Source: Enterococcus montenegrensis
GTDB taxonomy: Bacteria > Bacillota > Bacilli > Lactobacillales > Enterococcaceae
Assembly (NCBI RefSeq): GCF_029983095.1
Contig: NZ_CP120467.1
Location: forward strand, 1-64,000
Reading direction: 5' to 3'
DNA length: 64,000 nt
In this document: positions 10,622 to 57,207 of the stretch, in pieces
Layout: the number at the start of each line of letters is the position of its first letter
Position numbering within the stretch: the first letter of the stretch is position 1
Program-made: the position numbers and the translations under genes
The notes under the pieces: model-generated
Seen by the model: the letters and a program-made list of their open reading frames with translations, nothing else
Told to the model about the DNA's origin: nothing
Database searches by the model: none

Positions 10622-11250
10622 GCTGAAAGCGCTGGGTAACTCTTTGGAAAAATGTCGAAAATTTGGATGCTGATGTTTTTTATCAGAATCAAATTTTTGA
10701 ATTTTTCCCGAAGAGTTGGTGCTTGAAGCTGGATCTAAAGAAAAGCTTTGCGAACTCGTTTTACTCGTCAGCAATAAGGCATAATTTCAATAAATTGTTT
10801 TCCAAATTTCTTGAAATTTTGACTTATTGTCGCCGCGAGTTAGTTCGCAATGCTGGATCAAAGAAAAGCGAAACAAACTTGCATAGCCCGTTAAAAATAA
10901 GCGCAGAATTTTCAGAAATTGTCTCTTCAAATTTTTGGAAATTTTGACTTATTTCTTAGCGGGCTAGTTTGTGCAGCTAGATCAAAGAAAAGCTGAAAGC
11001 GCTGGGTAACTCTTTGGAAAAATGTCGAAAATTTGGATGCTGATGTTCTTTATCAGAATCAAATTTTTGAATTTTTCCCAAAGAGTTGGTGCTTGAAGCT
11101 GGATCTAAAGAAAAGTTATAGGAACTCGTTTAGCTTGCAAGCAATAAAATAAAATATTGCTAAATTGTTCTTCAAATTTCGCAAGATTTTGCTTTATTGT
11201 CGCAGCGAGTTAGTTCCTATAACTGGATCAAAGAAAAGCTGAAATCAGCG
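10622..11250 (-). repeat. Repeat array 1: five ~110-bp hairpin modules, order A-B-C-A-B, plus a module stub
   Basis: Modules begin at 10622 (type A), 10744 (B), 10867 (C), 10991 (A) and 11114 (B), a period of 122-124 bp. A 15-bp stub of a sixth begins at 11236. Each module starts and ends with AGCT or a one-base variant (AGCG, AGTT/AACT). The linkers are GGATC(A/T)AAGAAA. Within each module the two halves are imperfectly complementary. For example, the type B module at 10744 has GCGAACT near its left end and AGTTCGC near its right end, with CAATAAGgC...GaCTTATTG further in. The two type A modules are almost identical. I assign the minus strand because arrays 2-5 show the same linker orientation on the plus strand. 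Confidence 0.85.
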
Positions 11251-11261
11251 GTACAAAAATA

Positions 11262-11305
11262 CAAAAAAAGCATCCATTCCGATAAAGTTCAGGAATGGAT
11301 GCTTT
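11262..11305 (-). terminator. Terminator of the beta-glucoside operon
   Basis: The perfect 14-bp arms AAAGCATCCATTCC and GGAATGGATGCTTT surround an 11-nt loop and are followed on the minus strand by TTTTTTT. It lies 25 bp after the glucosidase stop codon. Confidence 0.93.
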
Positions 11306-11329
11306 CTGGTTGTCTGCATTACAATTTTT

Positions 11330-12769
11330 TTAGACTAAATCGGCACCATTTGTGGCAATGACTTTTTTGTACCAGTCAAAAGATTTCTTCTCGTAACGAT
11401 TGAAGGTCCCTTGGCCCTGGTCGTCTTTGTCCACGTAAATAAAGCCGTAGCGTTTGCTCATTTCGCCTGTTGAGGCACTGACTAAATCAATACAGCCCCA
11501 CGGTGTGTAGCCCATTAAATCGACACCGTCTGCCACGGCTTGGCCCATTGCTTTAATATGTTTGCGCAAGTAATCGATGCGGTAATCATCAGCAACGTAG
11601 AAATTCTCATCTACTTCATCATATGCGCCTAAGCCGTTTTCAACGATGAAAAGTGGTTTTTCGTAACGGTTGTACAATTCATTTAACGCGATACGCAAAC
11701 CGTCTGGATCAATTTGCCAGCCCCAGTCGCTCGCTTTTAAGAATGGATTTTTCACGCCGCCCAGAATATTCCCTTGCACTTTTTCAGCGGTCGTCGTTTC
11801 GTTAATCGCCGTTGACATATAGTAACTAAAGCCAATGTAGTCGACTGTATGGGCGGCAATTAAAGCTAGATCATCTGCTTTCATTTCTAGCGGCTGCACG
11901 TTATATTTTTCAAACATCCGTTTTACATAAGCCGGGTATTGCCCTCTAACTTGAACATCCGCGCAAAAATAGTTGAACTCTTGATTTTGGATCATGGTTG
12001 CCACTTGATTGATGGGATTAGCATCATAACTATAGCTTGTCCCATAAATAATCATACAACCGATTTGCAAATGAGGATCTAAGTCATGCCCAATTTTAAC
12101 TGCTTTGGCACTAGCTACAAATTGATGATGCCACGCTTGGAAAATATTTTGCCAATCACCACCGCCATTACTTTTGACCATCCCCATACTCAAAGCAGGT
12201 AGTTCAAAAGGAGAGTTGATTTCGTTAAAGGTCATCCAATATTTTACTTTTTGGTAGTAGCGGTTTAAAACCACCGTCGCAAAATTTTCGTAAAAAGCGA
12301 TTAATTCACGATTTTTCCAACCACCATATTTTTTAGCCAAGTGCAGTGGCATTTCATAATGAGAAATTGTCACGACAGGTTCAATATCATATTTTAAGCA
12401 CTCGTCAATTAATTCATCGTAAAAACGCAGGCCGGCTTCATTTGGTGCAGTTTCATCGCCATTTGGAAAAATGCGGGACCACGCAATCGAAAAGCGATAG
12501 CATTTGAAACCCATTTTGGCAAAAAGAGCAATATCTTCTTTGAAACGATGGTAATGATCAATCCCTGTATGATTGGGATAAATATAGTTACTTTCATCAA
12601 TTTCCCAGTCAAATTCTGCACCGGCTAAAATAGACCAGCGTTGTTTTCCACCAGGCATGGCATCGGCTACTGATAAGCCTTTGCCATCTGCTTGATAAGC
12701 TCCTTCTAATTGATTGGCCGCTGTTGCGCCGCCCCATAAGAAACCTTCTTTGAATACTGATTTTGTCAT
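11330..12769 (-). CDS. 6-phospho-beta-glucosidase, glycoside hydrolase family 1
   Basis: Cytoplasmic GH1 enzyme that hydrolyses phosphorylated beta-glucosides delivered by the neighbouring PTS permease. The 479-residue protein has the N-terminal [16 protein letters not shown] signature. The general acid/base Glu lies in [10 protein letters not shown] and the nucleophile Glu in [13 protein letters not shown]. The phosphate-binding region is near [17 protein letters not shown], as in phospho-glucosidases of the BglA/BglH type. It is the last gene of a licT-bglP-bglA type operon. The 36-bp gap from the permease gene contains a strong SD (AGGAGG) just before the ATG. A perfect terminator follows. 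Confidence 0.95.
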
Positions 12770-12805
12770 GATTTTCCTCCTTGTTTGTTGAATGATTTGT
12801 TATTT

Positions 12806-55559: not shown

Positions 55560-55616
55560 AAAACCTTGCTAGCAAAATGGTGCCCAGTTCCCATTAGTTA
55601 GCAAGGTTTTCTTTTA
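55560..55616 (+). terminator. Terminator of the YjbR-like gene
   Basis: AAAACCTTGCTA and TAGCAAGGTTTT enclose a 27-nt loop, then TCTTTT. Confidence 0.85.
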
Positions 55617-56021
55617 AAGATTGAATTGGAACAAGCAGTAGGCCAGATAAAAGGAAAAAAAGCTGCAAAACAGGCGGAAAACGGCACTTACTTTTGCAAA
55701 TACCAAGATGTTACGATCGTTTTTTGTAGGGAAAATAATAACCATTAAAAAAAGTTCTGATAAAAGGTTAATTTTCAAATGAGGATACTGTTATTATAAA
55801 AAAAACGAAATATAAACGGATAAAGAAAAAGCGTTTTTATATTGAATTTAACTACAGGTCATTGTTGCAATGTAGAAGCGTATCAGAAGTATTTGCTGCA
55901 AAAAAGCCCGCCCAAAAATAAGTACGAAATTTTTGGTAATTTACGTCGCAAACTTTCTAAATTTCGCCTTTTTTTAAGGGCTGTCGCGTTTATTTTCTGA
56001 TCAGTTACCGCTTAAAATAGT
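55617..56021. other. Gene-free stretch between yjbR-like and araC-like genes
   Basis: No gene is supported on either strand. The left two thirds are AT-rich without a recognised element. The right end holds a decayed repeat module (55889-55985), which may also act as terminator of the minus-strand AraC gene. Confidence 0.45.
55889..55985 (+). repeat. Decayed type C repeat module
   Basis: AGCCCGCCCAAAAATAAGTA and the following CGAAATTTTT closely resemble the start of the C module at 24632 (AGTCCGCCAAGAAATAAGTC, then CGAAATTTTT). The right half has diverged, though AAGCCC and GGGCT still pair. Confidence 0.5.
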
Positions 56022-56882
56022 TTAAGTCAATTGCTTTTGATACTGCAAAGGAGCACAGCCAACGGTTTTTTTGAAAACATGATGGAAGGTTTTGACGTTG
56101 GCAAAGCCAGCTTTAGCCGCGACATCACTCATGGGCAACTGTTCTGTAGCTAGTAAAAACTTGGCCTGCTCGATGCGATATTCTTTCAAATACTGAGAAA
56201 AGGGCAGTCCCACCTTTTGTTTAAAAAAGCGGGAAAAGTATGTTTGACTAAAGCCCACCTGTTTAGCTGCAGCCGCTAACGTGATAGGAGAGTCAAAATT
56301 AGCTTCAACATATTCAAAAATTTGATCCAATAATTCGAGGGTTTCACGACTTTTCAGATTTTCTTTAGCAGTATTTTGTTTTACATTCGGTTTTTTCGGC
56401 AGTTGATATAAGGCATAAATAAATTGCGTCAAAAGCCCCGTCACACCATATTGCCAGCCCTCGTGCCTTGTTTCTTGACAGTCAAAAATCTCCCGCAACA
56501 GGTGATTCAGATTTTTTTGTGCCAAAAGGGGCCACTGCTGGCTATAATTGGGCGCTTCATCAAAAAGCTGGAGTAAGGTGCGATCGGAGGTGACGAGATT
56601 GTTTTGCTCATAAAAAAAACGCAGATCAAACTGAAAAACAATACGCTTACTATCCGGGGAGGCAAGAAAAAAGTGGGGCTCGCCACTGGGAAAGAAAAAA
56701 ATCTCCCCTTCTGCCAATTCAAAAATCTCCCCAAAGGCCCCCAATTTCACTGTCCCTGTCAAACAATAAATCACTTCAATTTCTTTATGCCAATGGGGAT
56801 AGACGATTTCCCAACCATCATTAATAAACGTCCGAAAAGGAAAAGCACTATGTAATTCCGGTATTTCAAGATACAAACTCAT
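56022..56882 (-). CDS. AraC-family transcriptional regulator
   Basis: A 286-residue regulator with an N-terminal cupin-type sensor (HWHKEIEVIYCLTGTVKLGAFGE, EGEIFFFPSGEPHFFLASPDS). The C-terminal double HTH domain spans about 190-286 (ITLAAAAKQVGFSQTYFSRFFKQKVGLPFSQYLKEYRIEQAK, then MSDVAAKAGFANVKTFHHVFKKTVGCAPLQYQ). It is divergent from the three-gene oxidoreductase/epimerase operon that begins at 57345. It is thus the likely activator or repressor of it, with a sugar or polyol as ligand. The intervening 460 bp contain repeat array 5. Confidence 0.93.
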   Translation of the reverse strand: MSLYLEIPELHSAFPFRTFINDGWEIVYPHWHKEIEVIYCLTGTVKLGAFGEIFELAEGEIFFFPSGEPHFFLASPDSKRIVFQFDLRFFYEQNNLVTSDRTLLQLFDEAPNYSQQWPLLAQKNLNHLLREIFDCQETRHEGWQYGVTGLLTQFIYALYQLPKKPNVKQNTAKENLKSRETLELLDQIFEYVEANFDSPITLAAAAKQVGFSQTYFSRFFKQKVGLPFSQYLKEYRIEQAKFLLATEQLPMSDVAAKAGFANVKTFHHVFKKTVGCAPLQYQKQLT

Positions 56883-56939
56883 AATTTTCCTCCGCTTTTT
56901 AAAATTTTGGCTATCCGAATTTCTGATATTTTTTAAAAC

Positions 56940-57207
56940 GAGCTAAACGCTACCTTTCGTTTTTCTAGATTCAGCTGCAAAAACGAGCGCTCTAAGACAA
57001 TAAGCTAGAATTTCGAGAAATTTGAGGAGCAATTTATCAAAATTCCATCTTATTGCTTGTGAGCTAAACGCGTTTTTGAAGCTTTTCTTTTTAATCTAGC
57101 TACGCAAACTAGTCTTTCAAGAAATAAGGCGAACTTTTCAAAAATTTGAAAAACAATTTTCGCAAATTCCGCGCTTATTTTTTAAAGACTGGCAAGTTTG
57201 CTCCGCT
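56940..57207 (+). repeat. Repeat array 5: remnant plus modules B and C
   Basis: After a remnant of a B module end (about 56940-56960), type B lies at 56973-57083 and type C at 57098-57207, 125 bp apart. The B-C linker is TTTCTTTTTAATCT. Outer arms pair within each module: CAAAAACG with CGTTTTTG, and GCAAACTAGTCTTT with AAAGACTGGCAAGTTTGC. The array separates the divergent araC and oxidoreductase genes. Confidence 0.82.

Follow-up and report, generated by a model that had tools for sequence, protein, structure and literature searches.

A family of tandem hairpin repeats that follows replication and gathers near the origin in Enterococcus montenegrensis

The first 64,000 nucleotides of Enterococcus montenegrensis contig NZ_CP120467.1 (hereafter the window, at the start of a single contig of 2,829,429 bp) contain five arrays of hairpin modules, each about 110 bases long. 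These modules belong to a real, structured and genome-wide repeat family, and its orientation follows replication in both genomes of the E. dispar group examined for this property. The family is very probably related to EFAR, an enterococcal repeat. We give an even chance to the fuller account, in which these are non-autonomous, EFAR-related tandem hairpins that entered the chromosome near its origin by way of the lagging-strand template before multiplying locally. An initial annotation of the window, made from the DNA letters, had proposed an interspersed hairpin family that may be non-autonomous; our results agree with it in that the family is interspersed and probably non-autonomous.

By DnaA identity, the nearest genomes are those of Enterococcus sp. 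MJM12 (100%), E. dispar and E. canintestini (98% each). Because dnaN, dnaA and rnpA, identified through Pfam, sit at 16–20.8 kb, we set the replication origin at 19.6 kb. The strand on which TTTTCT follows the hairpin is denoted canonical, and its complement the R-strand. Modules fall into three types, A, B and C, which were aligned separately because a mixed alignment of B and C gave a poor consensus. Each type has its own profile; in addition, a covariance model termed R1 was built from 36 B modules. Genes were called with an open-reading-frame (ORF) script rather than a gene finder. The module catalogue derives from the window and from the stretches around model and BLAST matches, and may therefore miss far-diverged copies and arrays composed of A modules only.

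Further copies, whose existence the annotation had left to be checked, are present genome-wide. In all, the window and the stretches around matches yielded 126 modules or fragments, with 81 of them near-complete; 86 score at least 50 bits (61 B, 17 C and 8 A). They form 65 arrays or singletons, of which 30 hold two or more modules and the largest nine, and head-to-tail stacking is common. The profile search returned all five arrays, their module orders and the truncated copy at the places given by the annotation. Ends and linkers agree with its description as well, the hairpin feet being AGC..GCT and the linkers having the form TTTTCTnn(GATCC or TGTCT). Its regular spacing of 122–125 bp likewise extends beyond the window: 48 of 59 successive module starts across the genome fall in that range and 51 lie 121–126 bp apart, the rest being at 120 (six), 118 and 59 bp. 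Modules within an array resemble one another more than modules of different arrays, with identities of 82% (27 pairs) versus 70% for B and 90% (4 pairs) versus 77% for C, and 21 of the 36 B modules have their most similar B module within their own array.

Each module constitutes one long imperfect hairpin. In a fold test, eight modules surpassed 200 shuffled sequences by 1.7–7.4 standard deviations; two of these were weak (z-scores of −1.7 and −1.9), with 8 of the 200 shuffles folding equally well. Compensatory change is pronounced. In the alignment of 36 B modules, 28 of 40 pairs show two-sided change, which affects 167 cells compared with 57 on shuffling, and 89.5% of cells are paired compared with 30–47% when the alignment is slid. 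The self-folding asserted by the annotation is thus confirmed. We also note that the apical motif AAATTTG....CAATTT (columns 47–64 of alignment A3) is near-invariant in E. montenegrensis modules and recurs in modules of the E. faecalis group and Vagococcus; its conservation exceeds the needs of pairing, and it is possibly a protein recognition site.

The two strands of a module do not fold equally well. On the canonical strand, A.C or C.A oppositions occupy 68 cells and G.T or T.G oppositions 20, where shuffling expects 136 and 86, respectively. Since an A.C opposition on the canonical strand corresponds to a wobble pair on the R-strand, the R-strand pairs better. Consensus energies computed with alifold for A, B and C are −45.4, −25.9 and −34.7 kcal/mol on the R-strand versus −27.5, −9.1 and −18.8 kcal/mol on the canonical strand. 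R-strand RNA folds better in 78 of the 81 near-complete modules, and against a shuffle control its z-score is the lower one in 72 of 81. Outside the B structure, A.C oppositions, equivalent to G.U on the R-strand, recur at columns 36/75 (22 of 36 modules) and 25/86 (21 of 36). The canonical strand, with its T-rich tail, had been a candidate for the functional strand; the excess of A.C over G.T and the alifold energies overturned this assignment. In E. mundtii, the R-strand is better in 45 of 50 modules, and in 33 of 50 after the shuffle control (p=0.016), a weaker effect.

Orientation relative to replication is strongly biased. The canonical strand is co-directional with the fork in 54 of 65 arrays, a proportion that rises to 43 of 48 at 40 bits or more and to 26 of 28 at 80 bits or more. 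Gene contexts were assigned to 55 of the 58 arrays scoring at least 20 bits, three that overlap ORFs being left out. Co-directional and opposite arrays number 22:2 in tandem with leading-strand genes, 3:1 in tandem with lagging-strand genes, 16:4 between convergent genes and 6:1 between divergent genes; the direction-neutral contexts together give 22:5 (p=0.0015). As the polarity is present in every gene context, transcription of neighbouring genes is not its explanation. In E. dispar, 44 of 48 arrays are co-directional, counted among the best 59 of 117 matches (at least 47.3 bits). The arrays of E. montenegrensis (n=65) are moreover concentrated towards the origin, with 86% in the origin-proximal half of the chromosome and 58% in the nearest quarter (Kolmogorov–Smirnov p about 1e-8); that half holds 81% of arrays in E. 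dispar and 49% in E. mundtii. The annotation had described the arrays as lying around the origin, which was right as to location and understated the pattern, namely a gradient along the entire chromosome combined with a strand polarity linked to replication.

Comparison of close relatives reveals turnover, manifest both in empty sites and in changed module content. MJM12 is 95–98% identical in the window region, yet its module numbers differ. Twelve E. montenegrensis sites lack a called module in E. dispar (nine co-directional, three not; two of the twelve score below 20 bits in E. montenegrensis), and four E. dispar sites, all co-directional, are empty in E. montenegrensis. Taken together, 13 of 16 sites occupied in one species only are co-directional (p=0.02), or 11 of 14 once the two weak hits are removed (p=0.057). 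At the nine E. dispar sites common to both genomes, module content as called differs in every case. An array at 71437 has its counterpart in a place where E. dispar carries a hairpin, the E. dispar site corresponding to 2604888 has no stem-loop, and at several sites a terminator stands beside the array in both species. Maintenance by the host, one option raised by the annotation, fits poorly with relatives that differ in content and with sites that are empty in E. dispar.

The annotation did not recognise the family, and the view that it stands on its own is not supported. Of 49 named genomes, 29 carry the hairpin as detected by R1, among them Vagococcus and species of the E. faecalis and E. 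faecium groups; E. faecalis DNA carries it as well. Within Enterococcaceae, matches occur in 22 of 36 genomes (E. montenegrensis included), compared with 0 of 23 genomes from other families of the order, and copy number among congeners ranges from none to more than 60. Outside Enterococcaceae, Lacticaseibacillus zhaodongensis has nine R1 matches, one of them forming an almost perfect hairpin (113 nt, −69 kcal/mol); horizontal spread is a possible source of these copies.

In the E. faecalis record NZ_CP143580.1 (747,526 bp), R1 finds nine distinct places. At seven of them, the R-strand reads as a large hairpin, then CCGTTTATCA, then a second hairpin, for a total of about 170 bp. A T run follows the second hairpin in three of the seven units, and the stop codon of a long ORF lies 6–17 bp before the match in five of the nine places. 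EFAR, an element described by Venditti and colleagues in 2007, is reportedly palindromic and intergenic, varies in length through modular assembly, mostly measures 170 bp with two independent stem-loops, comprises 16 sequence types and is said to have stem-loops as its targets. The E. faecalis unit of about 170 bp with two stem-loops matches EFAR by description rather than letter by letter, and a described repeat family is very probably related to the hairpins of the window. The arrays of the window are tandem single large hairpins in which no second stem-loop of the E. faecalis kind was found, and the terminator-like hairpins beside E. montenegrensis arrays look unalike by eye. A passage of PMC3733652 names 'EFAR elements in Enterococci' among miniature inverted-repeat transposable elements (MITEs). 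The literature searched, which covered few subscription papers, yielded no description of EFAR, of these arrays or of replication-polarised enterococcal repeats.

Array 2 has no match among phages and one weak match among plasmids. A two-stem-loop unit of the E. lactis type occurs in 69 plasmid records, 58 of them from Enterococcus; on the E. faecalis plasmid NZ_CP092577.1 it lies between groL and an ISEf1 transposase gene, so such repeats can travel on plasmids. The E. montenegrensis genome also contains, at 2705239–2705312, a remnant with end letters of the E. faecalis type, CTTCTGTCCCAACCTC, oriented opposite to replication at a site that is free of modules in E. dispar. It may stem from the separate arrival of a second, EFAR-like lineage.

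We envisage that the element would use the single-stranded DNA exposed at replication forks, entering the lagging-strand template close to the origin, and that slippage or unequal exchange would then lengthen the arrays in tandem. It would be mobilised in trans by an enzyme that may be a Y1 (HUH) transposase. The fold may be selected while source copies spread, not at each resting place, and an array directly behind a stop codon would be read on its R-strand as a structured 3′ untranslated region (3′ UTR), like the E. faecalis unit. Fold quality and strand asymmetry are alike in 42 modules whose R-strand can be read by an adjacent gene and in 38 that cannot be so read (p=0.73 and 0.59), although with 80 modules a small difference is still possible and recent insertions would look alike too. 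A fold that is equal with or without a transcribing neighbour fits a constraint during spread. A more specific version, which we advance tentatively and consider doubtful, is a fork-borne element: the R-strand, which at 54 of 65 arrays corresponds to the nascent lagging strand, would fold as single-stranded DNA, be cut or copied from one fork, and be joined at another fork near the origin. If this were true, the chromosome would bear a polarised, origin-centred field of hairpin arrays, with selection for the fold acting on the intermediate rather than on any transcript.

The strongest competing explanation places function in the transcript. Here the modules would be structured elements of 3′ UTRs associated with terminators, their R-strand RNA hairpins lying between stop codon and terminator and shaping messenger RNA ends or stability, either as an RNase III substrate or as a block to exonucleases, as proposed for miniature repeats such as NEMIS (the RNase III proposal for NEMIS is set out in part of PMC2229807). 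That the R-strand is the better fold agrees with it. Between convergent genes, the R-strand starts at most 11 bp from the stop codon of whichever gene is read in its direction in 14 of 20 cases, with the other stop codon at least 39 bp away. Terminator-like hairpins lie downstream on the R-strand of 18 of 45 arrays and upstream of 3 of 45 (600 random windows gave 36 and 21 on the two strands). The stop codons and T runs of the E. faecalis units point the same way, as does E. mundtii, where 33 of 45 arrays lie behind a gene that converges on them. Proximity to stop codons and the downstream hairpins mean that some arrays would indeed be read as 3′ UTRs. Against this reading, 30 of the 55 classed arrays have no adjacent gene that reads the R-strand and their modules fold equally well, close relatives differ in module content, and replication polarity is left unexplained. 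Selection of the fold in place as a 3′ UTR was considered and rejected, as the asymmetry is the same where no adjacent gene transcribes the module. Nor do the modules qualify as intrinsic terminators: on the better-folding R-strand they end in GCT-AGAC or GCT-GGATC with no T run, and it is the canonical strand, which folds less well, that a T run follows. On balance we judge the 3′-UTR explanation rather unlikely, at a level with the fork-borne version.

Replication could also act without any enzyme of the element. Template switching at forks, by copying quasi-palindromes, would create, correct and spread hairpins, in agreement with fork polarity, compensatory change and local similarity. Simple correction towards perfect palindromes would, however, erase recurrent mismatches, yet the A.C oppositions at columns 36/75 and 25/86 stay and G.A is kept at columns 46/65 in 31 of 36 B modules; distant sites and the patchy presence across genera also require more than local copying. 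Template switching alone is accordingly improbable as the full explanation. We think it less probable still that the hairpins are marks of chromosome architecture, polarised and origin-rich so as to serve segregation or folding of the origin domain, a notion modelled on the architecture-imparting sequences presented in part of PMC5993296. Polarity and origin gradient in two species speak for such marks, and the lack of both in E. mundtii, the absence or scarcity of copies in certain congeners and the turnover of sites speak against them.

Several observations also weigh against the fuller account. E. mundtii is rich in relatives of the hairpin and shows neither polarity (26 of 53 arrays) nor an origin gradient; the polarity is thus not a general property of the hairpin. 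Neither a transposase nor a target duplication nor an exact element end has been identified. Y1 transposase matches occur in 20 of 22 repeat-bearing genomes of the family versus 7 of 14 without the repeat (p=0.014), an association across 36 genomes that ignores phylogeny. The only Y1 match in E. mundtii Pe161 is a broken fragment, Y1 matches are absent from two repeat-bearing genomes and carry stops in several cases elsewhere, and R1 matches nothing within 60 kb of the single Y1 gene of E. montenegrensis (2226257). The link to Y1 is therefore weak and suggestive only. The E. dispar module has the opposite orientation at two of the shared sites, 2725915 and 73379 in E. montenegrensis coordinates, the latter a 17-bit fragment in E. 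montenegrensis. Empty sites are not clean, several of them holding 100–230 bp of unmatched E. dispar DNA, and the likeness to EFAR is one of description, not of letters. At columns 24/87, a position outside the structure used, 30 of 36 modules have G.T on the canonical strand, the reverse of the general trend. Finally, the G-U preference of the R-strand is no less compatible with RNA than with single-stranded DNA.

Mobilisation by a reverse transcriptase, as in group II introns, was rejected in the absence of an association (13 of 22 repeat-bearing versus 7 of 14 other genomes); E. canintestini has no RVT_1 match despite at least 63 R1 matches. Around the arrays of the window, no transposase was recognised by Pfam among ten neighbouring proteins, in line with the annotation, and the only transposon-named match, IstB in DnaA, is a shared ATPase domain.

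Table 1. Hairpin modules and remnants in the window
Feature	Position	Strand	Modules	Remarks
Weak B remnant	2401–2481	−		22.3 bits
B remnant	4148–4226	−		30.8 bits
Array 1, five modules	10614–11223	−	B 11115–11223, A 10984–11100, C 10867–10978, B 10744–10854, A 10614–10730	Canonical order B-A-C-B-A (A-B-C-A-B on +); profile search
Truncated C module	15855–15924	−		Adjoins dnaN
Array 2, B-A-C-B	19875–20345	+	19875–19973, 19989–20105, 20111–20222, 20235–20345	
Array 3, B-C-B	24492–24850	+	24492–24603, 24617–24727, 24741–24850	
Array 4, B(partial)-A-B	47748–48105	+	B 47777–47858, 47872–47987, 47996–48105	Model extends partial B to 47748
C remnant	55038–55133	+		39.1 bits
C remnant	55897–55991	+		25.7 bits
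Array 5	56913–57207	+	A remnant 56913–56967, B 56973–57083, C 57098–57207	

The elements of the window are listed in Table 1, including four weak remnants (22–39 bits) that the annotation did not contain. Array 1, with linkers of the GATCC type, lies between an S4-domain gene (10153–10401) and a GH1 glycosidase gene (11330–12769), and the orthologous place in E. dispar has no module; at the site of the truncated C module, E. dispar carries A-B-B. Array 2, upstream of rnpA and near the dnaA/dnaN region, is an inverted copy of part of array 1 (95% identity over 477 bp); its site holds six modules in MJM12, against four in the window, and one truncated module in E. dispar. A terminator-like hairpin directly precedes array 3 and a MutS-domain-V gene lies downstream; this site has two modules in MJM12, against three in the window, and, in E. 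dispar, about 37 bp with a stem-loop instead. Divergent genes flank array 4 and also array 5, those of the latter encoding an AraC-type regulator and a GFO/IDH/MocA oxidoreductase; at the site of array 5, E. dispar carries A-B-B-A together with a fragment of a B module. Separately, the window contains two 54-nt direct repeats (35497–35550 and 35792–35845) that are 89% identical and start 295 bp apart.

For the question of how gene-less small repeats spread in bacteria, this family offers a measurable signature composed of strand polarity, origin gradient, empty sites and strand-specific pairing. Because the polarity exists in one clade and is lacking in another, a comparison of these clades offers a route to the mechanism. 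The arrays are now linked to an E. faecalis unit that often lies just after stop codons and to a plasmid-borne relative of the E. lactis type. In practical terms, caution is called for near dnaA and rnpA, where strains differ in the content of their arrays.

Among known systems, BOX, RUP, ERIC and NEMIS are small intergenic repeats with the potential to form stem-loop RNA, and the modules resemble them, by description and not by sequence, in size class, intergenic location and possible stem-loop RNA. The window has no Rfam match above the curated cut-off, and a relaxed search with array 1 returned microRNA families only, far below it. Group IIC introns insert after terminator hairpins, a placement with parallels in some arrays, and differ in that no association with reverse transcriptase is seen here. 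REP and REPIN sequences, for which passages of PMC3116915 and PMC6006769 report hairpins, compensatory changes, extragenic clusters and a proposed single-stranded DNA route with RAYT, share the first three features with the present family, for which a single-stranded DNA route is likewise proposed; here the unit is about 110 nt and no R1 match lies near the Y1 gene, and the REP-type GTAG or GTGG is present at the hairpin foot in 0 of 75 modules, 37 having GTCT. IS200/IS605 elements insert into the lagging-strand template (part of PMC6006769), and a corresponding orientation bias is seen in E. montenegrensis and E. dispar and not in E. mundtii; MITEs derived from IS200/IS605 differ, since the places examined yielded no relative with tnpA and here the hairpin fills the whole unit. 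The closest likeness is to EFAR. A model built from the E. montenegrensis genome finds the large stem-loop of the E. faecalis unit, variable length arises in both cases from several sequence types (here three types in arrays of one to nine modules), and array 3 stands where E. dispar has a stem-loop, a possible parallel to the targets attributed to EFAR. The differences are that the large stem-loop alone is repeated one to nine times in three types, mostly at 122–125 bp, and that replication polarity and origin gradient are not known features of EFAR. What is new here, then, is the tandem array of the large stem-loop alone, its orientation with replication and its strong proximity to the origin.

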